Origin: Pseudomonadota bacterium
GTDB taxonomy: Bacteria > Pseudomonadota > Gammaproteobacteria > Acidiferrobacterales > Acidiferrobacteraceae
DNA: 58,533 bases
Direction: 5' to 3'
Assembly: GCA_021785035.1 (NCBI GenBank)
Contig: JAJYGP010000032.1
Span: 1-58,533 of the forward strand
A model generated the notes under the pieces. The model saw nothing but the letters and a program-made list of their open reading frames with translations. It had not been told where the DNA came from and searched no databases. Shown here piece after piece: positions 9,194-32,114 of the stretch. The position numbers were made by a program, and so were the translations under genes. Position 1 is the stretch's first letter. Each line of letters starts with the position of its first letter.

Positions 9194-9222
9194 TTGCCGA
9201 CTCCGACCCAGGCCTTTACAGT
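9194..9222 (+). promoter_or_regulatory. Promoter of the phosphoketolase-like gene
   Basis: TTGCCG (9194-9199) and TACAGT (9217-9222) are separated by 17 bases and place a start about 25 bases before the ATG at 9254. A GGGCGG-GAA-CCGCCC hairpin (9169-9183) lies just upstream. The remaining intergenic DNA from 8980 shows nothing recognisable. Confidence 0.5.
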
Positions 9223-9253
9223 AACCGACCTTCATTCGCCCGAGAACGCCCCC

Positions 9254-16789: not shown

Positions 16790-18469
16790 TTAGGGCCGCG
16801 CCGAGACGGTATCCGACTTCCGGTAGAGGGCGTCGATTTGCGCCTGATAACGCTGCTCGACTTGCTGGCGGCGCACTTTGAGCGTAGGGGTCAGAAAGCC
16901 GTTTTCTATGGTCCACGGCTCTTGGACCCGCAAGACGTGCTGAACGCGAACATAGCCGGGAAAAGCATGCAGTTGGGCGTTGGCGCGCTCGCGCAAGACC
17001 TGCTCGTCCTCGACCGCGCTGTGCGCCAAGAGCGCGAGCGTTCCGCGCCCCTCGCCTACGATGAGAACCTGTTCGAAGACGAGATCCTCTAGGATCGCCT
17101 GCTCGACATCGGCGGGAGCCACCTTTTCCCCATTCGACAAGACGATGATGTCCTTGGCGCGACCGGTCAGATACAGGAGTCCGTCCTGCAAGCGGCCGAG
17201 ATCGCCGGTATGCAAAAAGCCCTCGCTGTCCAACACCTCGCTTGTCGCCTGCGGTTGACCCCAATATCCTTGCATGACACTAGGCCCCCGCACCCACAAT
17301 TCGTCATTGACGAAGCGGAGCTCGAGTCCTGCCAGGGGACGCCCGACCGAGCGCAGATCGCGATCGTGAAAACGGTGGCAAGTGATGACCGGCGAGGCCT
17401 CGGTCAGGCCATAACCGATCAAAAAACGAAGACCCATGCCGGTAAAGAACGAGAGCAGGGAAGGGGCCGCCGGGGCGCCTCCCAAAAACACAAAACACAG
17501 CCTCCCGCCCAAGCGCCGACGGATGGATCGGGCGACGAGCAGATCTGTGACACGCGCCTCGAGACGTTCCGTCCAATCGAGCGCGCCGCGGCGAAACCGA
17601 AAACCCAAATCGGCGGTGCGCGCGACCAAACGGGCCTTGAGCGGCGCGTCTTTTAAGGTCTCTTGGATGCGGGCGTAGCTACGCTCGAAGATCTTGGGGA
17701 CACTGACCAAGATCGTGGGTTGCGCCATCTTTAAATCCGCGCTCAGCTCGGCTATGCCGCGCGAGAATACCGTCTCAGCACCCATGGCCATGGCCACGTA
17801 CTGGCCGACCGTGCGTTCGAACATGTGGGACAGCGGGAGAAACGATAAAAACCTGTGCTCGCCGGCGGCAATTTCGGGTATGGCCTCCATAAGGGCCGCG
17901 ACGTTGGCCATGATGTTGGCATGGCTCAACATCACGCCCTTTGGCCGGCCCGTTGTTCCCGAAGTATAAACAATGGTCGCCAGGGGGCCAGACTCGTCTA
18001 CGAATGCGCGGGTCGCATGCTCGGGTAAACCCTGGTCCCAAGACACGACACCCGGCACCTCCTTTAAGCCCAAGATCGCCTTTAGACCGCAGGCCAAGAC
18101 CTCGGGCGCGGGGGGGCGATCGACCAACAAAAGACGCACACCGGCATCCTTGAGGCAGTAAGCAGTATTCTCGGGACGGTCGTTAAAAAACAGCGGGACC
18201 ACAGTGAGACCCAGCGACAGCGCCGCGACGTCAGCGAAGACCCAATGCGGCGAGTTATAGGCGCAGAGACCGACACGGTCGCCGGGATGAAGGCCCGCGC
18301 GCGCAAGCCCTTCGCGCATGCGGTTTACCTCTTCCTGGGCCTCCGCCCACGTAAAGTGGCGCCACGCGCCGTGTTCAAAGCCAGCGTAGGCCGGGGCGTT
18401 CGGGCTTTTTGCCGCACGCGCGGCAAAAAGTGCGGGCAGGGTCGCCGAGTCCAGGCCCACGACGGTCAT
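16790..18469 (-). CDS. fadD: Long-chain acyl-CoA synthetase (AMP-binding)
   Basis: This enzyme activates fatty acids to acyl-CoA with ATP via an acyl-AMP intermediate. The 559-residue protein of the ANL superfamily shows the P-loop IVYTSGTTGRPKGVMLSHAN, the fatty-acid-ligase segment FLSFLPLSHMFERTVGQY, YGLTEASPVI, HTGDLGRLQDGLLYLTGRAK then DIIVLSNGEKVAP, and a C-terminal lid with Lys in FLTPTLKVRR. The pattern matches the FadD15-type long-chain ligases. Its ATG overlaps the fadJ stop by four bases. Confidence 0.92.
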   Translation of the reverse strand: MTVVGLDSATLPALFAARAAKSPNAPAYAGFEHGAWRHFTWAEAQEEVNRMREGLARAGLHPGDRVGLCAYNSPHWVFADVAALSLGLTVVPLFFNDRPENTAYCLKDAGVRLLLVDRPPAPEVLACGLKAILGLKEVPGVVSWDQGLPEHATRAFVDESGPLATIVYTSGTTGRPKGVMLSHANIMANVAALMEAIPEIAAGEHRFLSFLPLSHMFERTVGQYVAMAMGAETVFSRGIAELSADLKMAQPTILVSVPKIFERSYARIQETLKDAPLKARLVARTADLGFRFRRGALDWTERLEARVTDLLVARSIRRRLGGRLCFVFLGGAPAAPSLLSFFTGMGLRFLIGYGLTEASPVITCHRFHDRDLRSVGRPLAGLELRFVNDELWVRGPSVMQGYWGQPQATSEVLDSEGFLHTGDLGRLQDGLLYLTGRAKDIIVLSNGEKVAPADVEQAILEDLVFEQVLIVGEGRGTLALLAHSAVEDEQVLRERANAQLHAFPGYVRVQHVLRVQEPWTIENGFLTPTLKVRRQQVEQRYQAQIDALYRKSDTVSARP

Positions 18470-20493
18470 GGTCTCAGCACCCGGCGTGCAAAGAGGTTTT
18501 CTTGGGACCAGGACTCGTCCGGAAGAAAACGCTCGCCAAAGCGCGCGCTTAGCTCCGTCAAGCGACCTTTGATCTCCGACGCGCCCAAGGTCTCGGCATA
18601 GCCCAAGGGCCCCCCACGAAACGGGGCGAAACCCGTTCCATAGACTAAGCCGATATCGACAATGTCAGCATCGGGTACGACCCCGCACCGCAGACACCGC
18701 GCGGCCTCGTTTAAGAGCCGCAGAATAAGCCGCTCAGAAATGACTGGATCGGGCGACGGGCGTTTGGACGCAAAGAAGGGCGACTTGATCGGGTAGACGT
18801 AAAAGCCGCGTCCGGACTTTTTGCCCAATTCGCCGGCGCTTACCTTGCGTGCGAGCAGATCCGGCACCGGTAGCCCTAAGGCGGCACTTAAGGTCTTGGC
18901 GACCGATAAACAAATGTCGAGACCCACGGTGTCGGCAAGGGCGATCGGACCCATGGGCATCCCGAAAGCCACCGCGGCCTGATCGATATCCGCAAGCGAC
19001 ACACCCTCTTCGGCCAAGAGTACGGCCTCCAAAAGATAGGGCATAAGAGCCCGATTGACGAGAAAGCCTGGGGCACTTTGCACGTCGATTGGCAAACGAT
19101 CGAGCGCCACCGCGAAGCTCCTAGCCCGCGCCAAGGCACTGTCTGTTGTACTGGTCCCCGCGATGATCTCGATAAGCTGCATCTTCGCGACGGGGTTAAA
19201 GAAATGCAGGCCGACCAGCCGTCCCGGTGAGCGCAAATCGGCGGCCAAGTCGTCTAAAGGGATGCTTGAGGTGTTGGTCGCGATGACCGTTTGCTCGGAT
19301 ACCTTGCGCTCGACCTCAGCCAGAAGGCCACGCTTCGCATCGCGGTCCTCGATGATCGCCTCTATGACGAGATCTGCGCCACCTAAACCATCGCCCTTGA
19401 GATCAGCAAACAGCCGATCGCGCGCCGCCTGGGCTGAGCGTCCGCGCAGCTTGTCGGCAAAAAGCGCATGGGCGCGCTTGACCGCAAGCCCCAGGGCCTT
19501 GGGTTCGCGATCCTGCAGGCTTACCGAAAATCCCTTATAGGCAGCCCACGCTGCGATGTCGGCACCCATCACGCCGGCCCCTATGACATGGATGTGGCGG
19601 GCCGGAGAGACACTGCCGGTGCGCGCCGAACGCTTCAATTCCTCAGACAACTCGAAGAGGCGCACCAGATGACGGCTGGTGGCAGTGACCACAAGTTCCG
19701 CGCAAGACAGGGCCTCGGCTTCAAGGGATCCTTGGCGAGCCCAAAGCCCCAAGAGCCGACAGGGCGCCGGGTAATGGTTACAATCGACCCGGGCCCGCAA
19801 TTGTCGGCGCATATACGCGCCCACATACGGCCGTAACCAGGGGGCAGCGAGCCAGGCCTGATGCCAAGGCGGACGACCCTTAGGCGGTACCCGTTTAAGC
19901 CGTGTGCGGGCCGCGACCAGTAGGTGACGTTCCGGAACACACTCGTCGACAAGCCCCAGTTTGCGAGCTTGGCGCGCGGCAATCGTGCGCCCACTCAACA
20001 TCAACGATAGGGCGGACAAAGGACCTATCAAGGCCGGCAGTCGCACCGTCCCACCAAAGCCCGGATGGATGCCTAATTTGACCTCGGGTAAGCCAAAAAT
20101 CGTGCGTTCGCTGTCGGAAGCGATTCGATAGCTACAAGCGAGCGCCAATTCAAGCCCGCCACCGAGACACGGTCCTTGGATCAAGGCCAGCGTAGGATAG
20201 GGCAAGAGGTTTAATCGTCGGAGAACCAATTGCCCAGCGCGGGTCAGTTCCGCGGCCCGCGCGGCATCGAGAATGCGACGAAACTCGTGAACATCCGCCC
20301 CGGCGATAAAGCTCCGCGGCTTCGCCGAGCGAATGATGAGGCCGTGCAATGGTCGCCCCTCGATCGTCGCCAAGACTTGGTCGAGCTCCGCCAACACCTC
20401 GCGCGACAAGACATTATGGCTACGTCCCGGAACATCGAGAACAAGTTCCGCGATACCGTCACTTTCGGATAACGACCAACTGTTCACCGTCAT
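18466..20493 (-). CDS. fadJ: Bifunctional enoyl-CoA hydratase / 3-hydroxyacyl-CoA dehydrogenase
   Basis: This enzyme catalyses steps 2 and 3 of beta-oxidation. The 675-residue protein has an N-terminal crotonase domain (FIAGADVHEF oxyanion loop, GPCLGGGLELALACSYRIA with one catalytic Glu, GLPEVKLGIHPGFGGT with the other). The C-terminal domain is 3-hydroxyacyl-CoA dehydrogenase (HVIGAGVMGADIAAWAAYKG, VIEAIIEDRDAK, and GLHFFNPVAKMQLIEII with the catalytic His). FadJ and FadB cannot be separated firmly by eye. The start used is the ATG at 20493, which overlaps the thiolase stop as ATGA; the frame extends further upstream but into thiolase codons. Confidence 0.92.
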   Translation of the reverse strand: MTVNSWSLSESDGIAELVLDVPGRSHNVLSREVLAELDQVLATIEGRPLHGLIIRSAKPRSFIAGADVHEFRRILDAARAAELTRAGQLVLRRLNLLPYPTLALIQGPCLGGGLELALACSYRIASDSERTIFGLPEVKLGIHPGFGGTVRLPALIGPLSALSLMLSGRTIAARQARKLGLVDECVPERHLLVAARTRLKRVPPKGRPPWHQAWLAAPWLRPYVGAYMRRQLRARVDCNHYPAPCRLLGLWARQGSLEAEALSCAELVVTATSRHLVRLFELSEELKRSARTGSVSPARHIHVIGAGVMGADIAAWAAYKGFSVSLQDREPKALGLAVKRAHALFADKLRGRSAQAARDRLFADLKGDGLGGADLVIEAIIEDRDAKRGLLAEVERKVSEQTVIATNTSSIPLDDLAADLRSPGRLVGLHFFNPVAKMQLIEIIAGTSTTDSALARARSFAVALDRLPIDVQSAPGFLVNRALMPYLLEAVLLAEEGVSLADIDQAAVAFGMPMGPIALADTVGLDICLSVAKTLSAALGLPVPDLLARKVSAGELGKKSGRGFYVYPIKSPFFASKRPSPDPVISERLILRLLNEAARCLRCGVVPDADIVDIGLVYGTGFAPFRGGPLGYAETLGASEIKGRLTELSARFGERFLPDESWSQENLFARRVLRP

Positions 20494-21782
20494 AACTGGC
20501 CTCCTGCCCGCACAAGCATTGCCCCACCCTGCCCTCCGCCGATACACAAAGTCGCAAGCCCCAAGGCTCCGGGCTGAGTCTGCAAGGAGCGCGCGAGATG
20601 GAGGACAAGTCGAGCGCCGGTCGCACCGACCGGGTGGCCCAAGGCCACCGCCCCACCCTGGGGATTGAGTCGCGCAGGGTCGATGGCCCCCAAGGGCGCG
20701 TCCAGCGCCAGCTCCTCGCGGGCATAATCGGCGCTCGCAAAAGCCGCCTGGCAGGCCAAAACCTGGGCGCTGAATGCCTCGTTTAATTCGAACTGGGCGA
20801 TGTCGTCCATGCCAAGCTTGTGGGCGGTCAAGAGCTTGGCTGTGGCGTGCACGGGCCCAAGACCCATCTGCGCGGGATCGACCCCGGCCCAGGCATGGTC
20901 GAGGATTTCGCCCAGAACCGGAAGCCGTTCACGCTTAACCATCGTCTCGCTCGCGAGCACGAGCAGTGCTGCACCATCTGTAATCTGCGAGCTGTTGCCC
21001 GAGGTCACGGTGCCATAGTGACGATCAAAAACCGGTTTGAGTTGGGCCAACTTTTCGAGCGTCGTATCGGGACGAACACCGTCGTCTTCAGTATGAAACT
21101 TCCCGTTCGACTCGTAGACCGCCTCGATCTCGTTTTGCAGGACCCCCGCCTCCTGGGCCCGCGCCAAACGCTGGTGGCTTTGCAGGGCAAAGCTGTCTTG
21201 GGCCACACGCCCGATCGCGAAGCGATGGGCGACGATCTCGGCGGTCTGGCCCATGGACAGTCCGACCACCGGATCGCTTAGACCCAACAGCAGCGAAAAC
21301 ACCGGCTTTAAGTGACTCAACCGAAAATCGGCCAACGACTTCAGTTTTTGTTCCACGTTCTTGGCTCGTAAGAAACGCGCGAGCCAGCGACTCATGGCGA
21401 TATTCCACTGGATGGGGGCGCGACTCATGGCCTCGGTGCCACCGGCCAAAATAAGATGGGCGCGCCCTGAGCTTATGCGATCGAAGGCGCTGGCTATAGC
21501 CTGGAGGCCAGACGCGCAGTTGCGTTGGACGGTAAATGCCGGAACCGCCGGACCCGTACCCAAGCGCAGGCCCACGATGCGGGCGATATTGGCCTCGTCG
21601 GGAGCGGCAATGACACAGCCGAGAATCACCTCGTCGAGATCCTCAGCACGAAATGATTGCCGGGCCAGCAAGGCACGGCCTGCCATCACCGCGAGGTCGG
21701 CCGCGCTAAAAGGGCCTGGCTCGTTGCGGGCCTTCAAAAACGGGGTGCGAGACCCGTCTACGATAAATACCCTGGCACTCAT
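20490..21782 (-). CDS. fadI: 3-ketoacyl-CoA thiolase
   Basis: This enzyme cleaves 3-ketoacyl-CoA to acetyl-CoA and a shortened acyl-CoA. The 430-residue protein has the nucleophilic Cys in FTVQRNCASGLQAIASA, the catalytic NEAF motif in FELNEAFSAQVLA, His in GGAVALGHPVGATGAR and the second Cys in LATLCIGGGQGGAML. Its length fits the FadI or trifunctional-beta type (about 430) better than FadA (about 387). It starts at the ATG at 21782, overlapping the stop of the giant fusion gene by four bases, and its own stop overlaps fadJ in the same way. Confidence 0.93.
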   Translation of the reverse strand: MSARVFIVDGSRTPFLKARNEPGPFSAADLAVMAGRALLARQSFRAEDLDEVILGCVIAAPDEANIARIVGLRLGTGPAVPAFTVQRNCASGLQAIASAFDRISSGRAHLILAGGTEAMSRAPIQWNIAMSRWLARFLRAKNVEQKLKSLADFRLSHLKPVFSLLLGLSDPVVGLSMGQTAEIVAHRFAIGRVAQDSFALQSHQRLARAQEAGVLQNEIEAVYESNGKFHTEDDGVRPDTTLEKLAQLKPVFDRHYGTVTSGNSSQITDGAALLVLASETMVKRERLPVLGEILDHAWAGVDPAQMGLGPVHATAKLLTAHKLGMDDIAQFELNEAFSAQVLACQAAFASADYAREELALDAPLGAIDPARLNPQGGAVALGHPVGATGARLVLHLARSLQTQPGALGLATLCIGGGQGGAMLVRAGGQL

Positions 21783-24700
21783 ACCTCCTCCTCAACCCCT
21801 GATGTCGGGATGGCCGCCAAAAGACCTTCCACCCACGTCTGCGCATCCCCAAGGCAGCGAATGACCGGCTGCGCGCCCCGGTCAGCCGTAAATATGGGCG
21901 CCTCCGGGTCTTTATTGATCGCCACCACCTGCGTGCCGCTGCCGATGCCCACGAGATGTTGCGGGGCCCCCGACACCCCTACGGCGAGCAAAATGCGTGG
22001 CGCGACGTGGGTCCCGGTTTGACCGATCTGATGCTCAAGGGGCAAAAGCTTACTCTCCTGAACAACCTTGCGCGTAGCTCCTAATAACACCTTGCAACCC
22101 ATCATAGCCGAGAGTCGCTCGCGAAGCGGTAAAATCCGTCTCTCAAAAAACGTGGCGTCGGCCGCCCCGAAGCCCACATCCAAAATCACCTCGGCGCCCG
22201 CCATGCCATCGGTCTCTTGGCGCGCCAAGGCCCGCGCCAAGGCCCCCGAAGACTTCCTCAGGGGCGCCCAATCATCCACCGCACAGGTCTTGGCTTGCGG
22301 CAATTCGCGGGCCTCGGCCGTTGCCGTGGCAACAAGGATCGCGGTCTCAGGACAGGCGGTAAGCCAGGCCAAATCGGCTTTTTCAAGAACGAGGTTATCC
22401 CCTATCCGTCCCGCCACACCCAAGTAGAGGGGGCGGCCCAAGACTTGGGCGAGAGCGGCCGCCAAATCCGCCCGGTCATAAGGCAATACCAAGCGCGGAC
22501 TCCCCTTCAGCCACTGGGCCAGATGACGGGCAAGGGGGAGCGCCGCGGCTTGCCCCACGACACGCACGACCGGACCTTCAACAGAAGCCGGAGGGACATC
22601 ATCCGAGGCCCCGGTAAGCCAGAGCACTCCCGCGTCCCGACTCCACGCGCGCGCGACCCAAAGAGGCCCCAAGGCCCCGGTCCCGGACCCGACGATGGCC
22701 ACGGTCGGAGGCAGGTCCCGAACCTTTCCTGGAACAATCCGCGCACCGACCTGGGCCACGCCACGCCCCTGTTTACGCAGCCAATCGGCCAAAACCTCTG
22801 GGCTTTCGATGTGTGCCGGCGCCTTCTCGGGGCCAGCGCTTTTACGGTAGGGCATCACCTTATAGCCACTTACCACGGTCTCGGTCGTCGGCTCCCTTAA
22901 CACCTTCAGCCAATTCGTTACCGGAAACTCATCGCTGCGCCCGGTCGCGCTAAAAGACGCGCTGATCACGAGCTTGCGCTTCGCGGCTATGGGACGCGAG
23001 CCGCCAGCGCGCACAATCCCGTAACCCCGACGGCCGCGGGCCTTGATGCCGGTGACGCGGTCGACATAAGTGGCTCCCAAGGCCCCGCTCAGCGCTTGCA
23101 AAAAGAGCGGGTCGTAGCGACCCGCGAGCACGAGATCGGGCTCCCAATCCGCGAGCGCGGCGGCCACCTTCGCCGCATCCGGCCACCCGATACCAACCAA
23201 CGCCGTAACCCGCGCGCCTGCGGCGCGCAGCCGCTGGGTCAGATCCGGGCACGGAGCCTCAGTGATAGTGACTGCGATGATCTCGATCGCGGCTTGCGCA
23301 TCAGCCGCCTCTAGGGCCAGATCGAGAACGGCAAGATCATCGCCGTCCAGGCGCACATCGTCGGCGCCGTACTGCGCCACGCCGCGCACCAGAACGACGA
23401 TCCTCCCCGAGAAACCGGCCTCGATACCGCAGTCCTCCGAGGACGGAGGGGTCGTTCCCCGCTCAGAGAGGCTGCGGACCGCGTCTTCATAGAGGCGTTC
23501 TTCTTTGAAGAGCGCCTTCACCGCCTGGGCACGGGCCCCTGTGGCACGCTCGACCATCGCCTCCAGGGCGGTAAGCGTCTTCAGATAATCCGGGTCCACG
23601 GATTGGGCCTGCAGCGCGAGCCGCCGTTCCACCAAGGCCGCCCACACATAAAGTTCGCCCAGCCAGTCGACCACCGAAAACCAGGCGATTTCGCAATCAC
23701 CATCCACGGCCACCCGCGCCTTCAGGTCTTCGAGGCGAGGGGTCAAGAAATCGGCAAATACCCCCAAGGCCCGGTCCAGACCCTCGCTGCCAGTGGTCTT
23801 CTTCGTCGCAAACGCTGCGAAAAGTCCCGGCACATCCTTCAACACCAGGAACCGCTGGATCTCGTTTGTCCCCTCATAGATATTGAGGATGCGGGCATCG
23901 CGACGCCATTTCTCGATAAGCTCGCAAGTCGCCGCCGCCATCGGCCCACGCGCTGATTCGAGCGCCAAGAGCACACGATGCAGCCCTTCGGAGGCCAGGA
24001 ACTTGGAGAGCGCGGCCTCCATGCGAAAATCGCCGGCCGTGAGATCAGCCCGGTCCATGAGGCCCATGAGACGCGCGCCGAGCGTGCGTATACGCTCATG
24101 TTCATACCGTGCAAGCGCCAAAGCTTCGGGGGCATCCGCCAAAATCGGACCATAGTCCTTGAGGACACGCTCAAGCAGGCTCCCGCAACCGACCACCAAG
24201 CCGCCACGTCCCACACTGAGGGTCTCTAGCGCGCTTACCTGGCCATGTCCTCGGTAGCCTATGATATGGCTGACACACACCCGCACCGCAGAAAGACTCA
24301 ATTCGTTGGTAGGCGAGGCCCGCTGCCCCAACTTGCGTTCGTTTTGACCAATATGCAGGCCCTCGGAACGGCGTTCGATCATGAAGCCGGTTTCGCCCCA
24401 CTCGGTCTGTGCGTACAAGCAGTAGCGATCAGCCAGCGAGCCATTGGTGATCCACATCTTAGCGCCGGACAGCTGGTAATGGTCGTAGACAAAACCGTGG
24501 TCGGTCGCAGTCGGTGTGCCGATATCGTCGTACTCGTAGCTCACCCCGGAATCGAGCACGAGGCGGCGCTTACCACACTGACGCTCCATATCCCAACCGC
24601 TATCGTCGAGACGCGCGCGCGTCTCGTTCAGCAGCCGGTAGGTCACGGCCGAGCCATTCAAATCGAGCCGCCGTTCGTCGAGTAAAATGCGGGAACCCCC

Positions 24701-27700
24701 CTCTATGCTAAAGTGCCAGAGGCCGAGAGCATCTTGCGTAAGAGGGACTTTGACGCGACGTGCTCGCGTGGTGACGCCACCGGTGTCCGAGCCGGCGTTA
24801 GGCTCGGTCAGGGCGAAGGCGCTGATCTGACCGTGAGCGAGAAACTCTAAAAAATGTTGATGGGCAAGCACGCGTCCGGGAAGCATGGCCCGCTCCTCGT
24901 CCAAGGCCTCGGACAACCGCATGAGGCCCCGGGCCAAGGCCTGAGTCTTCAGATCCAGTTCGTCCAGGTCGCGGGCCCGGGCGACCGCCACCAGATCGCG
25001 GAAATCGAGCAATACATCCCGGGCCAGATACTTGAGCGCTGAGCCGTGACCCAAAAACAATCCCCTAAAGAGCCGTTCGAGAGCCCGGATCGTGGCCTTG
25101 ATAGCGCTTGGGCGCGGACGCGCGCATAGGCCCCGCAGACGCGTGCACAAGGCCTGGAGCCGGGCAAAGGCCGACCCCGGAAAGGCCGCCAATTCGCCAC
25201 GCAGTCGCGGAAGATCCTTGTCTAGCGCCAGTAAGACCGGCATCGTGCCGATACTCGTGCTCGCCATAACAAGAAGACCGACGGAGGTGTCAGCGCGACC
25301 CATAAGTAGGCTCGTCAGCACCGCGTATTCGGCCTTGCTAAGACCCTTCCCTCCTAGGGCTTCAGGGACCACCGTGGCAAAAGCCTTAAAGGCGCGCAAA
25401 TGGTCGATGTCGGCCGGCGGCATGCCATGGAGTCGATCGATATAACGGCCGTACGGGCCGCCCTCGGGGTCGCGGAAACCGCTGCGCAAAAGTCTGAGGA
25501 CTTGGGCACGCATATGCCGCAAACGCGGATCCGCCAAAAAATACTCGGGCAGAAAAACCGCATCCGGGCCCAAGGTGTCACCCAGCAGAAAGCTGCCGCT
25601 CTGGTAAGGAAAAGGGGTTGCCGCAGGCATCGTGAGGCCGCGCAGGCGGTGCCTCAAGGGCGGCAGCAGAGCCGGGGGTGGCGCGACGAAGACACCGTGG
25701 CGCAAAAAGTAGGCCTCAGAATCATGGCGCAAGGCCTTACGCCAAAGGGCCGCTTCCCAGGGGACGTCGGTGCGCAAAGGCACAGCCCCGGGCCATTGGG
25801 CGAATACCATCGCATCGCGGTAACGAGGGGCCAGTATATCGTCTTCGGAGTAGGCAATACCCCCAAACACCTGGCCCGCGACCCAGGCCACGCCGTCTTG
25901 CGACACGCCAAAACGCGCCTTGAGAAGACTGACAACCGCCTGCGGGTCCTGATCGCAAGTCGCCGACATCGTGCGCGCCAGGGTCAGGCTATATTCGATG
26001 AGCGCCACTAAGCGCTTGACGGCCCCGAACTTGATAATCGCAGTTCGACCCTCTCGATCCCGATAGGATTCGCCAAACTGCTTGCGGCTAAGCACGTAGG
26101 CGCTGGCGCGCGCAAGCAAGCCGCGTCCAAATCCTTCCATAAGCGCAGTATAATAGCGGGCAAACAGGGGTCCTATGTGCCATGGCTCGACATCCCGTTC
26201 CGCCACTTGCGCACGGATCGGGCGCGCAACATCAAGCCCGGCTGCGCCCGTTGCCACACGAAGGTCAAGGGCTCCATGTCTCCCCCAATAGACCCCGCCC
26301 GTGTCCGGCAGCCAGTCCGACAGGCCATCGGACTCGATGTGCACGAGCGCCGTGAGGTCCGCCAAACGCTGTCCGCGGTAGTCCTCGGCCAAGAGATGGT
26401 GCGCGGCAACGAACCCCAGTGCCGGCGTATGCTCGGCCAGGGCCGCGAGCAAGACCTCAGGCGATTCGACGCCGCGATGTAAAAAATTCACAAGGTCCTG
26501 TCTGTCAGCCGCGGTCCACCGCGTGGCCATAATCGCAAGCCGCGCGGCCGGAAAGAGTCGCGTGAGCTGGGCGCGCAGGCGGAGCCTGGGCGAATGCGCC
26601 GTCGGCCGCTCGCGGGTCCAGGGCAATTGGCCGGCGAGCATCGCCTCCAGCGTCCCCCAAGCCCCCTGATCGCACAACGCCACACAGCGCGCGGAATCTG
26701 CGACCGCGGTCATGAGGGCCGAACGCACGGCTTGTCGCCAGAGCGGTCCTGGGGCCACAGGGCGGCTTTTCACGACCTCGTAGATCTCCCGCAAAGTGGG
26801 GTCTTCGACTACAGGTGGGCAACTGGCTTCGATCTCGCTCTGGGCGCTTCCGTCTAGGCCGAAACGCCGGGCCTCTGGTAGCTCGTATATGAAACGATGG
26901 CTACTCAGCCGATTCCAATCGATGTCCGGGACTGTGAGCCGGCACGATTCGCACTTGATACAGTTTTCCGGAACGGTCCCAGCACCAGCCACCGCACTCC
27001 CGAGACTGTAGACCTCGGCCGGGCACACACGCCGCAAGCGCTGTGCCTGGGCGCTCGCCAAATCGGAGGGGACCCTTAAGTGCCGCACATCGGGGCGCAG
27101 ACGACCTAGCGGCGCAAGCCAGGTCAGGGGGGAATAAGGTGGCTCATGGTCCCAAGACAGTTGCGCCCGTGACAACCGTTCCCTCTGATAATAAGGGCGG
27201 CTTGCGAGAACCGTGCGCGAGCGGGCCGCCACCGCTATCGCGTCACCCAGAAACGCCGCTCCTCCCACCACAATCAAAGGCGCGCTCCGCGCTAGGGCGT
27301 AAGCCGCGGCCCCCCCCCACGGACGGGCATAAATGGCCGCGACCCGGGTCTCCAGGAGCGGTAGGCCGCGCCCATAGAGATAGCCGATGGCGCGCGCGAG
27401 ATAAGCAAAGGCCGCCCCCTCCACCGCGACATTCTCGAGTCGGGCCGAGCGCGCATAGAGCCAGCGAACCGCAAGCGGTGGTATGTCAGAGGTCCGGGGT
27501 ATCCTCGGTACGGCCGCCACCGCGGACAAAGTCGCGCCATCGCGAGTCAGAGACAAGGCGGTCCTCGCAAACGCTCGCGCACGCGTGGCTCGACTCGAAC
27601 CCAGCGCTCCCACAAGTTCGGGCAAGTGATCGAACATCAGCGAGGTCTCGTGCAAAGCCTTAGGCCAAGCACGTGAGAACTGGGCGTTCTGGTAATCGGT

Positions 27701-28783
27701 GCCGCGCGCCAAACGGCCGCCATAGGCCTCCGACAAGGCGGCCGCGGAATAGTCCTGACGCGCGCGCAATTCGAGTACCGCGTCTGCGAACGCAACCCCA
27801 GTGGCGGCGGCCGGGCCCATGAAATTTGGATAGGGGAACTCTTGTCCAAGCCCCAATAGGGCACCGCCGATGGCGAGTCCATCATGGGCGCAACTCGCCC
27901 CCTCGCTCAAACCGCCCGACCGAATAACCTTTACGCCATAGGCGATCTGGCGCGCCCCCTCCAAAAGGGTGGCGACCTCGGGAAGACGCAGGAAGTGATT
28001 CAAGAGTTGCGGGTGATCGACCGGACCGTGTTCGGCAACACGTTCGAGCGGCAACACAAGACCCACCGACAAGCTATCGCGATTGGTGTAGAGAAAACCG
28101 GTGGCGTTTAAAGGCTTTAGGCGCCCCTGAAAGGATCCGTTGCGCAGGAGCCACTCCTGCGCCAAGCCTTCGCCGGGAGCGAGCGCAAATCGCTCCTCTA
28201 TGACCGAAGCCGGAAGCGCGAACACCGCCTTGATGCCTTGCGCGTAATGGACGCCGCCCGAGTCAAGGCCAGCCCGACTCAAGAGCTGTCCGGCGTCGCC
28301 CTCGGCCAAAAACACCACCGGCGCCAAAAGAGGTCCGCGCGCGGTCTCCACGCCGACCACCCGCCCTTGCCCATAACGCAGCGCAGTCACGGCCGTGCGC
28401 GGGAGAATGGTTACGCCGCAGCGAACGGCATAGGCCGCCACATAGCGGTCGAACTTGGGTCGCAGTACGGTCCACGCCGCACCGTAGTCGTTATGCTCTA
28501 CCGCGCGCGCCTCGAACCCGCCACAGTTCGCCCCATCATGAACAAGCAACTGGCGAGCCGTGATACGCCGCTCCTTGGGCGCCTTAGCAAAAGCCTCGGT
28601 GCCCAACACATCATCCCGCAAAAGCGGTTCGGCATGATAAACCCCGCCTGACCAGTTTTCGGCTCCAACGAATTCCGCGCCCTCCAGCAACAGGGTACGA
28701 ACCCCGGCCCGCGCCAAACGTAAGGCCGCGGCGATCCCCGCTGGACCACCGCCTATGATCAGAACCTCAGGGTTCTTCTGCAT
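21779..28783 (-). CDS. Giant fusion: ETF-QO + 4Fe-4S + pseudo-ACAD + acyl-CoA dehydrogenase + EtfB + EtfA
   Basis: A continuous 2,334-codon frame. The ATG at 28783 is chosen because GAGGG lies upstream and IIGGGPAG follows at once. Modules (approximate residues): 5-420, FAD domain of FixC/ETF-quinone oxidoreductase (GGGPAG at 11-16, GAENWSGGVY); 423-581, unassigned; 585-625, ETF-QO 4Fe-4S domain with C587, C608, C611, C614 (ENCIKCESC); 676-1031, acyl-CoA-dehydrogenase-like but without the catalytic Glu; 1080-1665, acyl-CoA dehydrogenase with ALTEPNAGSDTGG, KMWITNGSLADRY and the catalytic Glu E1637 in NIYEGTNEIQRF; 1665-1780, its helical tail; 1790-1985, EtfB-like; 2025-2334, EtfA with the FAD motifs HQIGQTGTHVAP, VGVSGAPQHLVG and VAINKDPEAPIF. 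It would pass electrons from acyl-CoA through ETF to quinone within one chain. The first gene of an ATGA-coupled series. I know of no described protein with this complete arrangement. Confidence 0.9.
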   Translation of the reverse strand: MQKNPEVLIIGGGPAGIAAALRLARAGVRTLLLEGAEFVGAENWSGGVYHAEPLLRDDVLGTEAFAKAPKERRITARQLLVHDGANCGGFEARAVEHNDYGAAWTVLRPKFDRYVAAYAVRCGVTILPRTAVTALRYGQGRVVGVETARGPLLAPVVFLAEGDAGQLLSRAGLDSGGVHYAQGIKAVFALPASVIEERFALAPGEGLAQEWLLRNGSFQGRLKPLNATGFLYTNRDSLSVGLVLPLERVAEHGPVDHPQLLNHFLRLPEVATLLEGARQIAYGVKVIRSGGLSEGASCAHDGLAIGGALLGLGQEFPYPNFMGPAAATGVAFADAVLELRARQDYSAAALSEAYGGRLARGTDYQNAQFSRAWPKALHETSLMFDHLPELVGALGSSRATRARAFARTALSLTRDGATLSAVAAVPRIPRTSDIPPLAVRWLYARSARLENVAVEGAAFAYLARAIGYLYGRGLPLLETRVAAIYARPWGGAAAYALARSAPLIVVGGAAFLGDAIAVAARSRTVLASRPYYQRERLSRAQLSWDHEPPYSPLTWLAPLGRLRPDVRHLRVPSDLASAQAQRLRRVCPAEVYSLGSAVAGAGTVPENCIKCESCRLTVPDIDWNRLSSHRFIYELPEARRFGLDGSAQSEIEASCPPVVEDPTLREIYEVVKSRPVAPGPLWRQAVRSALMTAVADSARCVALCDQGAWGTLEAMLAGQLPWTRERPTAHSPRLRLRAQLTRLFPAARLAIMATRWTAADRQDLVNFLHRGVESPEVLLAALAEHTPALGFVAAHHLLAEDYRGQRLADLTALVHIESDGLSDWLPDTGGVYWGRHGALDLRVATGAAGLDVARPIRAQVAERDVEPWHIGPLFARYYTALMEGFGRGLLARASAYVLSRKQFGESYRDREGRTAIIKFGAVKRLVALIEYSLTLARTMSATCDQDPQAVVSLLKARFGVSQDGVAWVAGQVFGGIAYSEDDILAPRYRDAMVFAQWPGAVPLRTDVPWEAALWRKALRHDSEAYFLRHGVFVAPPPALLPPLRHRLRGLTMPAATPFPYQSGSFLLGDTLGPDAVFLPEYFLADPRLRHMRAQVLRLLRSGFRDPEGGPYGRYIDRLHGMPPADIDHLRAFKAFATVVPEALGGKGLSKAEYAVLTSLLMGRADTSVGLLVMASTSIGTMPVLLALDKDLPRLRGELAAFPGSAFARLQALCTRLRGLCARPRPSAIKATIRALERLFRGLFLGHGSALKYLARDVLLDFRDLVAVARARDLDELDLKTQALARGLMRLSEALDEERAMLPGRVLAHQHFLEFLAHGQISAFALTEPNAGSDTGGVTTRARRVKVPLTQDALGLWHFSIEGGSRILLDERRLDLNGSAVTYRLLNETRARLDDSGWDMERQCGKRRLVLDSGVSYEYDDIGTPTATDHGFVYDHYQLSGAKMWITNGSLADRYCLYAQTEWGETGFMIERRSEGLHIGQNERKLGQRASPTNELSLSAVRVCVSHIIGYRGHGQVSALETLSVGRGGLVVGCGSLLERVLKDYGPILADAPEALALARYEHERIRTLGARLMGLMDRADLTAGDFRMEAALSKFLASEGLHRVLLALESARGPMAAATCELIEKWRRDARILNIYEGTNEIQRFLVLKDVPGLFAAFATKKTTGSEGLDRALGVFADFLTPRLEDLKARVAVDGDCEIAWFSVVDWLGELYVWAALVERRLALQAQSVDPDYLKTLTALEAMVERATGARAQAVKALFKEERLYEDAVRSLSERGTTPPSSEDCGIEAGFSGRIVVLVRGVAQYGADDVRLDGDDLAVLDLALEAADAQAAIEIIAVTITEAPCPDLTQRLRAAGARVTALVGIGWPDAAKVAAALADWEPDLVLAGRYDPLFLQALSGALGATYVDRVTGIKARGRRGYGIVRAGGSRPIAAKRKLVISASFSATGRSDEFPVTNWLKVLREPTTETVVSGYKVMPYRKSAGPEKAPAHIESPEVLADWLRKQGRGVAQVGARIVPGKVRDLPPTVAIVGSGTGALGPLWVARAWSRDAGVLWLTGASDDVPPASVEGPVVRVVGQAAALPLARHLAQWLKGSPRLVLPYDRADLAAALAQVLGRPLYLGVAGRIGDNLVLEKADLAWLTACPETAILVATATAEARELPQAKTCAVDDWAPLRKSSGALARALARQETDGMAGAEVILDVGFGAADATFFERRILPLRERLSAMMGCKVLLGATRKVVQESKLLPLEHQIGQTGTHVAPRILLAVGVSGAPQHLVGIGSGTQVVAINKDPEAPIFTADRGAQPVIRCLGDAQTWVEGLLAAIPTSGVEEEV

Positions 28784-28864
28784 GCTCTTGCCCTCACAGC
28801 GGAGTATAGACGGGTAGCGGGACACGCGTAACGAAAGATCCCTTGGCGCCTCGTTACAAGGACG

Positions 28865-29698
28865 CTAGCCTGAGCCATCCGGGACGATAGGGTCCCGCAT
28901 TTTTGATGCCTCGACGGAGGACGGCGCGTCCTCCGTCTCCCACACAACCGACCGATAATCATGGTAGGTCAAGGGCGTCACTTTGATGATATCGAAAAAG
29001 GGCGAAATATCGAAATCCTTTGGAAGCGAAAAACGACTGTCGCGACGATACCATAAGGTCGCGTGGCCGCGCCGAACGAGCATCGGGAGAATCGGAAAAC
29101 CCACCGACTGAAAGGCCTCAGCGATCAAAGCCGAGCAAACGGTACGGGTATGGGGCCCGGCGCGGCGCGCAAAAAGACCGGAGCGAAAACGTCGCGGAAC
29201 AAAGTGCCACGGCAAGGTCAAGCGCGCAAGGTCGAGCAGCTGGCGGAGGTCATAACCGTAGCCTATCCGCGCCAAAGCATAGCGCACGACCGCGGCCCGA
29301 TCAGCGGGAGCAAGTCCGCGCGGGCGACACAGGCGCAGATGCGTATGGTTATAATCGCGCAAAGGTTTGAGCACGGCGCCTTGACCCAATAGGACCTCCA
29401 ACAAGAGCGGTCCTTGCGACCAGGGATCGGTGGCAGCCTGCGAAAGATCGTCGCGATTCAGGCCCGACAGCTCGCCGCCACTCCCGACACACAAAGCGGC
29501 ATGCGACCACGTGCTTTGGCCTATAGTCTTGATCATAGCCCCCACGCGCGTCATACCTTCCATCAGCACGACATCGCCCGGACGAACCGTGCGCATCAGG
29601 GCCTCGTGGTCGGCAAGCGATTCGAGCAAGGGACTGCTTGGCCGTTCGGTCGTGAGCCAAGCTATGGCCTTAAGAGCAAACCAACGGCGAATCGCCAT
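28865..29698 (-). CDS. YiiX/C92-type NlpC/P60-like cysteine hydrolase
   Basis: This 277-residue protein resembles the permuted papain-fold family (Peptidase_C92, YiiX/YebB), whose members cleave amide or acyl bonds in lipids or peptidoglycan. Visible are RPGDVVLMEG near residue 39, the catalytic His in STWSHAALCVG (H66) and the catalytic Cys in TVCSALIAEAFQSVGFP (C188). No signal peptide is evident, though the N-terminus is amphipathic. The ATG at 29698 is preferred to an upstream start that would add 52 low-quality residues. It lies 81 bases before the fusion gene on the same strand and may head that operon, and is divergent from sor. Confidence 0.7.
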   Translation of the reverse strand: MAIRRWFALKAIAWLTTERPSSPLLESLADHEALMRTVRPGDVVLMEGMTRVGAMIKTIGQSTWSHAALCVGSGGELSGLNRDDLSQAATDPWSQGPLLLEVLLGQGAVLKPLRDYNHTHLRLCRPRGLAPADRAAVVRYALARIGYGYDLRQLLDLARLTLPWHFVPRRFRSGLFARRAGPHTRTVCSALIAEAFQSVGFPILPMLVRRGHATLWYRRDSRFSLPKDFDISPFFDIIKVTPLTYHDYRSVVWETEDAPSSVEASKMRDPIVPDGSG

Positions 29699-29852
29699 GC
29701 GACACGTCCCGGCGTAAACCACTTTGTCCCAGTGTAAGCCAAAAACGGAGCAAATTCCGCACCCGCGAAAGCGGGCACTGGGCACTGGCCTAGGTCGGAT
29801 CAAGAATACAGGGGGACGACGTAGGATAAGGCCTCTGCCTACGGAGGACGTC

Positions 29853-30824
29853 ATGCGAGACCGCCCAATGCCTCACGACCAAGCCCAGGGGAACGGCGCG
29901 AACCCCATCATAGCAATCAACATAGCACGCATCGCCAATCACCGGGAAAACTATGAGGTCATGTATAAGGTCGGGCCCCAAGTCTGCATAACGACCGCGG
30001 CCCATCCGGGTTTTCTCGGCTTCGACCAGCTCCTTCAAGTTGGCATTCACCCGATGGCCGGACGTTATGGGGGTGGTGCCTTGGATATGCGCGAGATCCT
30101 CAACCCAATCAGTATGTTTCAGTATACCGTCTGGAAGGATGCCAAATCCCACGAGGAGATGCACTACCTGCCGTTCGACACGAACTACGAATTGTGCTCC
30201 CACTGCTTGGCCATGGTGATCGAGGGCCCCTGGGAGCCGCTTTACGAGATACTGGCCTCCGACCTGCCGCCGTCGATTGGGATGACGGATGTCCCGAAGA
30301 TCATGATGGAACGGGCCGGCGCCCAACAACCCGTACCGAAACTTGCCTTGCCCAATCGCACCATAGCGCGCGGTGATCACAGCGCCATGCATGGTCACGA
30401 GACCGATTTTGAGCAGGGGGTCGAAGACACCATGAAGTGGCTCATGAGACATGCGCCCGGCATGCTCGGGTGGATGTTTTTAAAGCACATCGGGGTATCT
30501 GCGATCGGATCGTTTCAATTGGACCCACAGGGAACGACCAAGGCGACGCTTGGGGCCAACCCGCCGAAGTACGGAACGAACTATGGCGACAAACCGCTCG
30601 ACCATCCACCGATTCCGGCCGCGACCCCGGCCCAATATTTCGTGCACATGGAATGGGAGACGCCGGAGTTGGCGCACCAGGGCCTAGGCAAGATACTCGT
30701 CAATTACGAAGCTCGAAAGATCCACGACCAAGGCGTGTTGGCACACATAAACCGCGGTCCCTACTACATGCTATTCACCTCCATGATGGAGGAAGGCTCG
30801 TGGCGGGATCATCTTGTCCACTAG
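29853..30824 (+). CDS. sor: Sulfur oxygenase reductase
   Basis: This cytoplasmic non-haem iron enzyme converts elemental sulfur with O2 to sulfite, thiosulfate and sulfide, without external cofactors. The 323-residue protein aligns with the Acidianus ambivalens enzyme at a constant offset of 14. The persulfide-carrying C31 corresponds to C45 (VGPQVCITTAAHPGF), iron ligands H86, H90 and E114 to H100, H104 (SHEEMH) and E128 (GPWEPLYE), and C101 and C104 to C115 and C118 (LCSHC). The C-terminus keeps GPYYMLF and MMEEGSWRD. Family members form large hollow 24-mers. The start is the ATG at 29853 with GGAGG five bases upstream. It is followed by an SQR gene nine bases later. Confidence 0.95.
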   Translation: MRDRPMPHDQAQGNGANPIIAINIARIANHRENYEVMYKVGPQVCITTAAHPGFLGFDQLLQVGIHPMAGRYGGGALDMREILNPISMFQYTVWKDAKSHEEMHYLPFDTNYELCSHCLAMVIEGPWEPLYEILASDLPPSIGMTDVPKIMMERAGAQQPVPKLALPNRTIARGDHSAMHGHETDFEQGVEDTMKWLMRHAPGMLGWMFLKHIGVSAIGSFQLDPQGTTKATLGANPPKYGTNYGDKPLDHPPIPAATPAQYFVHMEWETPELAHQGLGKILVNYEARKIHDQGVLAHINRGPYYMLFTSMMEEGSWRDHLVH

Positions 30825-30833
30825 GAGGCGCTC

Positions 30834-32114
30834 ATGATGACAAACGGCAAACCAAAAGTGGTGGTCTTGGGCGGGAATTTCGCGGGACTCGCCAGCACCC
30901 AAAAGATCCGGGAATACGCCGGCGACGCGGTCGATATCACCGTCATAGACCGTAACCCTTATCTTTTATTCATCCCGAACATCCCCGGGGAGGTCTTCGA
31001 GAACCGCGATCCGGCGGCCAGTCTCAGAATGGATACTTACAAGGCCTGGCAAGAGGCGCGAGTGGACTTTATCCAGGGCGAGGTACGCGGCATTAACCCT
31101 GATACCCGGGTGGTCGAATTTACCTCTCGGGAGCGCGAGGGGTCGGCATACGAGACAACTCCCTACGATTACCTGGTTGTCGCCTTCGGTTGCCGGCTCG
31201 CCTACGACCGCATCCCAGGGTTTGCCGAACACGGGCACACGGTCTCCGACACGTATTATGGGAACAAACTTCGGCGCACACTATTCGACGGCGGTTATAA
31301 AGGCGGGCCAATCGCCGTAGGCTCGGCTCGCTTTCACCAAGGGACGGCGGTCAAGGACCTCGTCCCGATGGCCGATGCCGCCTGCGAAGGGCCACCGATC
31401 GAGATCATGATGTCGATGGCGACCTGGCTCAAAAATCGCGGCTTCGGCGGCCCCGACAAGATCACGGTATTCACCCCTGGGCGACTCATTGCCGAAGACG
31501 CTGGCGAGAAGATCGTCAATGCCTTGTTGGGGATCGCCAGCAAGATGGGCTTTCACTACCGCAATAATGTGGGCGATATCGTCGAGGTCACGGCCGAGGG
31601 CGTGCGCTTTGCGAACGGTGACGGGCTTGAGGCGGAGCTTAAGATCTTGCTTCCTGACTGGGTGCCGCACACCTTCATGATGGGGCTCCCCGTTTGCGAT
31701 GAAGAAGGCTTCGTCGTGACCGATATGCTCATGCGCAATCCCAAATATCCCGAGGTCCTGGCTTGCGGGGACGCGGCCGCGGTCACGGTCCCGAAATTGG
31801 GGGCAATAGGGCACCAAGAGAGCGAGATCGTCGGGAAGCAGATCGCCCTGGACCTCGGACGCGTCAGCGCCGAGTTTGCCGCCGAACCCTTAAAACCGCT
31901 GGTCTACTGCATAGGCGACATGGGCGATAAGCAGGCCTTTTACATCCGGTCGAATTCCTGGTTTGGCGGCGACACCCAGATCCTGAAAATGGGGCGGGTA
32001 CCCTACCTGCTTAAGATGCAGTACAAGGATCTTTTCTTTCGCACCCAAGGCAAGGTCCCGCCGTGGGGTCTCGACGCGGCCCAGTTCCTGGCGGAGCGGC
32101 TCTTTGCCGCCTAA
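30834..32114 (+). CDS. sqr: Sulfide:quinone oxidoreductase
   Basis: This FAD enzyme oxidises sulfide to polysulfide or sulfur and reduces quinone at the membrane. The 426-residue protein has the N-terminal dinucleotide fold (VVVLGGNFAGLAS). Three Cys correspond to the catalytic set of the A. ferrooxidans enzyme: C120 (AFGCRLAYDRIPG), C184 (ADAACEGPPIE) and C359 (VYCIGDMGDKQAF). It also has VLACGDAAAVTVPKLG for FAD binding. A C-terminal amphipathic stretch (YLLKMQYKDLFF) could anchor it to the membrane. AGGAGG overlaps the sor stop codon; the start may be either of the tandem ATGs at 30834 and 30837. Confidence 0.9.
   Translation: MMTNGKPKVVVLGGNFAGLASTQKIREYAGDAVDITVIDRNPYLLFIPNIPGEVFENRDPAASLRMDTYKAWQEARVDFIQGEVRGINPDTRVVEFTSREREGSAYETTPYDYLVVAFGCRLAYDRIPGFAEHGHTVSDTYYGNKLRRTLFDGGYKGGPIAVGSARFHQGTAVKDLVPMADAACEGPPIEIMMSMATWLKNRGFGGPDKITVFTPGRLIAEDAGEKIVNALLGIASKMGFHYRNNVGDIVEVTAEGVRFANGDGLEAELKILLPDWVPHTFMMGLPVCDEEGFVVTDMLMRNPKYPEVLACGDAAAVTVPKLGAIGHQESEIVGKQIALDLGRVSAEFAAEPLKPLVYCIGDMGDKQAFYIRSNSWFGGDTQILKMGRVPYLLKMQYKDLFFRTQGKVPPWGLDAAQFLAERLFAA

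Follow-up and report, generated by a model that had tools for sequence, protein, structure and literature searches.

A candidate single-chain acyl-CoA:quinone oxidoreductase in the operon slot of fadE

The 58,533-nucleotide stretch of DNA analyzed here (contig JAJYGP010000032.1 of assembly GCA_021785035.1, from the Acidiferrobacteraceae; hereafter the window) contains one very long gene, in which the original prediction had recognized a single polypeptide joining an electron transfer flavoprotein:quinone oxidoreductase (ETF-QO), an iron-sulfur domain, two acyl-CoA dehydrogenase (ACAD) modules, and the EtfB and EtfA halves of electron transfer flavoprotein (ETF). The locus raises the question of whether such a fusion is a genuine protein and, if so, what it would do in the cell. 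Our answer, held with good though not full confidence, is that the gene encodes a self-contained, single-chain acyl-CoA:quinone oxidoreductase taking the place of FadE, the activity being one that its sequence features would support.

The predicted frame of 2,334 residues was indeed borne out. The gene occupies window positions 21779-28783 and lies on the minus strand, which the prediction had left unnamed; it runs from an ATG at 28783 to a TGA stop at 21781-21779 as a single open frame of 2,334 codons plus the stop. A reading of the region on the plus strand was ruled out, as it is full of stops. The same open frame extends upstream to a GTG at 28825, and further possible upstream starts are present in some of the related loci; the ATG at 28783 was taken as the start because a start codon is found exactly 10 residues ahead of the G(A/G)GPAG motif in 19/19 loci that have the N-terminus (ATG in 18, GTG in L005). 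Upstream of the start codon, two kinds of sequence box were noticed by eye: a CTATACT box shortly before it in the window's genus (window 28784-28815, minus strand), and a CTATAAC-like box farther upstream in carriers of a second family, f7. The box was not listed by the promoter scan; the position of such boxes hints at a short leader.

The window was drawn from a draft genome of 107 contigs (94.5% complete), a circumstance that would favor an assembly or annotation artifact. However, independent genomes, one of them a single contig, carry the fusion at 43-92% identity to the window's protein across its whole length, and we regard the probability of an artifact as negligible. Relatives came from a scan of genome contigs for a pattern of six short peptides, which gave 11 loci, and from a search of 57 genomes in the window's order; the six-peptide scan, the sole reach into other phyla, is sensitive to close relatives alone and did not pick up the f7 carriers. 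The full-length homology search that had been proposed along with the prediction thus returned co-linear relatives in 16 other genomes, belonging to two families. In all, 20 of the 57 order genomes are fusion carriers by our own reading of the 38 that gave any match; 17 of them, the window included, have an uninterrupted frame, and three copies (G011, G012 and G014) are cut by contig ends. The carriers form two groups, one in the window's own family, made up of genus g1 plus a single genome of g2, and the other in family f7, where they belong to genus g26. Since G001 (one 3.4-Mb contig) and G013 (4 contigs) also carry the fusion in one frame, a missed stop codon or a chimeric assembly, either of which would have undone the prediction, is excluded. 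The one TGA that was flagged, in the copy of G010, was read as the natural stop, because the L007 protein encoded there has the same end point as its close relatives.

All modules of the protein are under purifying selection. When four close pairs were compared over ten stretches, linkers included, dN/dS stayed below 0.4 throughout (40 comparisons, maximum 0.36), and the linker stretches themselves gave 0.16-0.33. Outside the order, no partial fusion was found among the candidates scored in 369 genomes of the class (E 1e-40) or in 299 genomes of the phylum (E 1e-45), nor was a stand-alone ACAD1 found among those scored in 299 genomes (E 1e-6); these searches were samples in which only part of the candidates in each genome was scored, and they are compatible with a wider occurrence. 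The best match to the FixC-like part within the class, in G251, was located on a 3.4-kb contig that gave no view of neighboring genes.

The central feature of the protein is the division of labor between its two ACAD modules. ACAD2 (residues 1077-1665; 23789..25555, minus strand) has the makings of a catalytic half: PF02770 and PF00441 matched it in 18/18 sequences and PF02771 in 12/18, and both the MWI(T/S)NG region of the beta domain and the glutamate E1637, located in the motif NIYEGTNEI, are kept in all 18. Its nearest solved relative is very-long-chain ACAD (VLCAD), and the top Foldseek matches were ACADVL and ACAD9. It is followed by a C-terminal extension (residues 1666-1790; 23414..23788, minus strand) for which the structure model predicts helices, and whose position presumably resembles that of the extra C-terminal helices of VLCAD. 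ACAD1 (residues 735-1005; 25769..26581, minus strand) appears to be a non-catalytic partner. It retains R900-x-Q902-F903 and Q971-x2-G974-G975, motifs by which an ACAD binds the FAD of its neighbor, in 18/18 sequences, and in each of them a proline, Pro998, is found where the catalytic glutamate belongs; the middle (beta) domain of ACADs was not detected in it by PF02770 (0/18), and PF00441 matched it in 3/18 only. The diagnostic motifs are cleanly partitioned, i.e., RxQF occurs once per protein and always in ACAD1, and YEGT once and always in ACAD2 (18/18), and in 18/18, the alignment with VLCAD included, ACAD2 has no QxxGG at the corresponding position, with chance matches elsewhere in 6/18. 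A profile of the 18 ACAD1 sequences matched butyryl-CoA dehydrogenase in its C-terminal domain (7e-5). No similarity was detected between ACAD1 and ACAD2 by hhalign, so that their kinship rests on the separate matches of each to ACADs.

Such a partition has a precedent in how ACADs hold their flavin adenine dinucleotide (FAD), namely at the boundary of two subunits. On the basis of the family motifs, we take the Arg and GG motifs of ACAD1 to be the probable counterparts of Arg312 and Gly384 of isovaleryl-CoA dehydrogenase (IVD), a comparison that covers these two positions; the alignments of ACAD1 were made to 3pfd, 6fah and butyryl-CoA dehydrogenase. In a report on human IVD, Arg312, Gln323 and Gly384 are described as contributed by bordering monomers to the shared FAD site (PMC12369846). 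The mycobacterial ChsE4-ChsE5, which are alpha2beta2 ACADs, are similarly described as split between an alpha subunit that has the isoalloxazine and the Glu and a beta subunit that has the ADP-ribose part of FAD (PMC11153573); the likeness to the fusion lies in the division of motifs between a catalytic and an ADP-ribose half. ACAD1 and ACAD2 are accordingly predicted to form one composite FAD and active site per polypeptide. Judged by motif content, only ACAD2 can be catalytic, and the pair does not amount to two enzymes; the claim of two ACAD modules therefore stands as a description of the architecture, but not of the enzymology, given the Pro998 that replaces Glu in all 18 ACAD1 sequences.

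The remaining modules would supply the path of the electrons from the ACAD site to quinone. The N-terminal, FixC/ETF-QO-like flavoprotein module (residues 1-390; 27614..28783, minus strand) matched the FixC-type models of NCBIfam at 8e-44 and 2e-39, both far under the curated cut-offs; it also matched 7koe_C FixC at 8e-40, as against 2e-11 for the ETF-QO 2gmh, and is thus nearer to FixC. 7koe_C was also the top Foldseek match for the N-terminal model, which is itself of low confidence. Next comes a middle region (residues 391-586; 27026..27613, minus strand; dN/dS 0.14-0.30) with a hydrophobic stretch, 502-520, that is not common to most relatives. It leads into a putative single [4Fe-4S] domain (residues 587-645; 26849..27025, minus strand) with the pattern C587-x20-C608-x2-C611-x2-C614. 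These four cysteines are invariant in 18/18 aligned sequences, and they as well as E1637 were found exactly at the positions that had been named; the other conserved cysteines, C943, C1455 and C2310, all lie outside the domain. PF05187 matched the domain in 17/17 members at E values up to 1, the window's own match being under the cut-off, and a whole-genome search with this profile gave no match in the window's genome; the comparison with 7koe_D FixX gave 2e-4.

At the C-terminus, EtfA (residues 2001-2334; 21782..22783, minus strand) was readily recognized. PF00766 matched it at 7e-16 in the window's protein, over the cut-off, and in 17/18 members, the 18th being cut by a contig end; 5ow0_A matched at 1e-30, and the FAD motif (GQTGxxVAP..GVSGAPQH..AINxDPxAPIF) is conserved. 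The preceding EtfB-like module (residues 1791-2000; 22784..23413, minus strand) is strongly diverged and its assignment is tentative. Alternating strands and helices are predicted in it, and hhalign against nine stand-alone EtfB rows of related genomes, combined into a profile, returned a P value of 2e-4 (probability 46%, 88 columns), as compared with 0.24-0.39 for the control profiles of EtfA, thiolase and FadJ. From its place, its predicted fold and this profile match, the region is likely EtfB. By its sequence, the EtfB module is barely recognizable. Within the EtfB part, the sense strand also has a terminator-like hairpin of 8 pairs, 7 of them G-C, with a T tract (window 23107-23125, minus strand); it was rejected as a terminator signal, the hairpin total of the region being no higher than in shuffled sequences.

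The surroundings of the gene were informative as to its role. The start of a thiolase gene (20490..21782, minus strand; PRK08170.1 at 3e-195, over the cut-off) overlaps the stop of the fusion in an ATGA, and is followed on the same strand by a FadJ/FadB-type enoyl-CoA hydratase/3-hydroxyacyl-CoA dehydrogenase (18466..20547; FadJ at 1e-159, under its cut-off) and a FadD-type acyl-CoA synthetase (16790..18469; best match to fatty acid CoA ligase models 2e-67, under the cut-off). Among the 20 relative loci examined, the order fusion-thiolase-FadJ-synthetase was found in all 17 that reach beyond the fusion. In the genomes of the order that lack the fusion, a FadE-length ACAD is present in 29/37 (28 frames of 705-869 codons, and that of G039 cut at a contig edge). 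Of these 29 FadE-type loci 22 were fetched, and in 22/22 the fadE gene adjoins genes related to this thiolase (63-71% identity) and this FadJ (53-60%). The synthetase is also present behind the fadE operon in 14/22; five of the other 8 run out of sequence, and L068, L070 and L074 continue for about 2 kb with no synthetase match. The fusion and a FadE-length ACAD were found together in 0/57 genomes (20 with the fusion, 29 with FadE, 8 with neither; Fisher p 3e-9, kinship ignored). Since fadE holds the same slot in 22/22 loci and no genome has both, we conclude that the fusion takes the place of FadE.

In sequence the fusion is not a FadE of the E. coli type (about 815 amino acids), for which the model PRK09463.1 matched the fusion over 32 residues only (9e-6); the shorter Bacillus FadE model gave 2e-34, but only 119 of the 600 bits required. 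As to origin, the suggestion that an ancestral operon had been fused serially was not upheld, as no unfused operon of that order was found in the samples searched and an exchange with fadE was found instead. The argument from etfBA order is correct to the extent that EtfB-EtfA is also the order of separate etfBA neighbors in related genomes, and the order of the remaining modules is unmatched. A tree of thiolase and FadJ groups the fusion operons of f7 with the fadE operons of f7 (FastTree 0.99; 95 in the SH-like approximate likelihood ratio test, two changes). Two independent exchanges between fadE and the fusion are nevertheless not claimed, because the approximately unbiased test does not reject a single fusion clade (p 0.33).

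The inventory of other ETFs bears on both enzymes. In the window's genome, PF00766 and PF02770 each match the fusion alone and PF01012 matches nothing, so that the fusion is the only ETF detected there. By PF00766 and PF01012, no separate ETF was found in 8/20 carriers (G000, G004, G006, G009, G011, G051, G054 and G055), G011 being a draft of 85% completeness. The same profiles detected no ETF in 22/29 FadE-type genomes, including G040 and G049, each a single contig, which suggests that FadE needs no ETF. The electron acceptor of FadE is described as unsettled in two E. coli papers, according to which no ETF has yet been identified as its partner, one of them adding a possible direct reduction of quinone (PMC9329746, PMC11495604). 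The exchange with fadE and the 22/29 FadE genomes with no detected ETF are comparative evidence on the destination of the electrons from E. coli FadE, and these genomes speak for a direct reduction of quinone by that enzyme. We lean, by a small measure, toward a reading in which the fusion would be a covalent respiratory branch from dehydrogenase to quinone, with an internal heterodimer site and exchangeable with FadE, and FadE would then be an ETF-independent acyl-CoA:quinone oxidoreductase. As a separate observation, made by eye, the FadE of G040 starts with a long hydrophobic stretch.

In the proposed mechanism, acyl-CoA would be dehydrogenated in ACAD2 with Glu1637 as the base, and the FAD of this site would be held jointly, its isoalloxazine by ACAD2 and its ADP half by an ACAD1 that may be the partner in the same chain or one swapped between the two chains of a dimer. 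The electrons would next reach the FAD in the tethered EtfA/EtfB module and move on, from the EtfA flavin, to the single [4Fe-4S] cluster and the FAD of the ETF-QO module, which would dock on the membrane and reduce quinone. The enzyme would thus perform the first step of beta-oxidation within a four-gene operon that also provides the thiolase, the hydratase/dehydrogenase and the acyl-CoA synthetase. We infer cofactor occupancy, the electron path, membrane docking, the quinone acceptor and the intactness of the chain from the modules present; membrane contact, in particular, would follow by analogy with ETF-QO. The 'covalent electron wire' from acyl-CoA to quinone that had been envisaged is accordingly real as one frame with the needed parts in 20 genomes, and presumptive as a flow of electrons.

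Several observations weigh against this assignment of function. The ubiquinone-binding profile of ETF-QO, PF21162, matched weakly and in 7/18 members (best 7e-4), and the quinone site and EtfB are the weakest of our assignments. In the EtfB region, the Pfam ETF profile PF01012 matched 2/17 members (best 0.026) and was outscored by the unrelated CbiZ model (5/17, best 0.0013), and the best PDB-profile matches were glycoside hydrolases (0.009), the ETF subunit CarD being fifth (0.018). A crude hydropathy scan showed scattered peaks and no shared transmembrane anchor; the Kyte-Doolittle peaks of 1.9 at residue 502 (among the top four in 4/18 sequences) and 1.8 at residue 1168, inside ACAD2, both exceed the usual threshold of 1.6. 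Both AlphaFold models were weak, with a mean predicted local distance difference test score of 56.4 and 68.5. The fusion is also not always alone: 12/20 carriers have a separate ETF, which in 11 is an EtfA beside a FixC-type gene and in the remaining one, G053, a domain of ETF lying at the edge of a contig. Finally, exclusivity holds only in part, because 7/20 carriers have another ACAD over the cut-off (frames of 387-619 codons).

A further challenge is that the chain might be made as one and then cut into a conventional ACAD, ETF and ETF-QO, the fusion merely setting their ratio. In favor of this, the stretches 641-720 and 1001-1040 show some of the lowest conservation, although parts of the ETF modules are equally variable. 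On the other hand, the fusion has been kept unbroken in 17 genomes from two families, the linkers still evolve under the constraint given above, and a divided ACAD site would need reassembly. Nor was a conserved internal start found for separate modules, since every internal ATG codon common to 14 or more of the 17 sequences falls within ACAD2, a result for ATG at that frequency that leaves room for rarer or GTG/TTG starts. We therefore hold cleavage to be unlikely. An intact chain acting as an acyl-CoA:quinone oxidoreductase could, in turn, be specialized for a particular acyl-CoA, in an operon dedicated to one compound; sulfur-metabolism genes do lie just past the operon, and the substrate pocket was modeled poorly. 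VLCAD, however, is the best solved relative of ACAD2, and the same slot in the relatives belongs to FadE, which in E. coli acts on fatty acyl-CoAs; this makes such a special substrate quite unlikely. More improbable still is that the EtfB/EtfA and FixC modules run in reverse or bifurcate, for enoyl-CoA reduction or low-potential electrons. Its attraction is that the first module is nearest to the FixC of the bifurcating FixABCX. FixX of that complex carries two clusters, whereas the cluster domain of the fusion has a single conserved set of four cysteines; moreover, the operon is simply degradative and the fusion occupies the place of FadE.

The enzyme as proposed has parallels in several known systems. 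It shares its kinds of modules and its presumed electron path with the mitochondrial-type chain of ACAD, ETF and ETF-QO, which consists of separate proteins joined by diffusible ETF, in contrast to one chain with a composite ACAD. ChsE4 and ChsE5 are the products of two genes and are not known to have an ETF or ETF-QO attached. FadE of the E. coli type shares the operon slot and the presumed reaction, but is a protein of about 815 amino acids with no ETF or ETF-QO modules. FixABCX contains FixC, FixX-like and EtfA relatives of the fusion modules, but as separate chains that bifurcate and include no ACAD. Mycobacterial EtfD likewise couples beta-oxidation to quinone (PMC13083937); it differs in architecture, being a membrane protein of its own whose Fe-S clusters are unusual. 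The belief that no protein with this full architecture had been described was sustained: among the matches listed in a literature search of titles and abstract openings, with subscription journals mostly outside its scope, neither such a fusion, nor a divided ACAD in one chain, nor an exchange with FadE was found. All modules thus come from known families, and what does not appear in the literature searched is their union, the division of the ACAD within one chain, and the FadE swap. If the proposal is true, one chain replaces a diffusible relay of three proteins, and the fusion is a ready-made natural construct in which to study the structure of the whole path from ACAD through ETF to ETF-QO.

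Other genes of the window are recorded here for completeness. Just upstream of the fusion (28865-29854, minus strand) is an amidase-like gene of the YiiX/YaeF papain-like family, just under the cut-off; such a gene adjoins the fusion in 3/20 relative loci. A sulfur oxygenase reductase gene (29724-30824, plus strand; PF07682, 3e-123) lies upstream of the operon in the opposite orientation, followed at 30834-32114 by a pyridine-nucleotide-disulphide oxidoreductase with a weak match, under the cut-off, to sulfide:quinone reductase. Lastly, a phosphoketolase-like protein of 761 amino acids (9194-11479, plus strand) exceeded the Pfam cut-offs for XFP and XFP_N but fell far short of those that NCBIfam sets for phosphoketolases.

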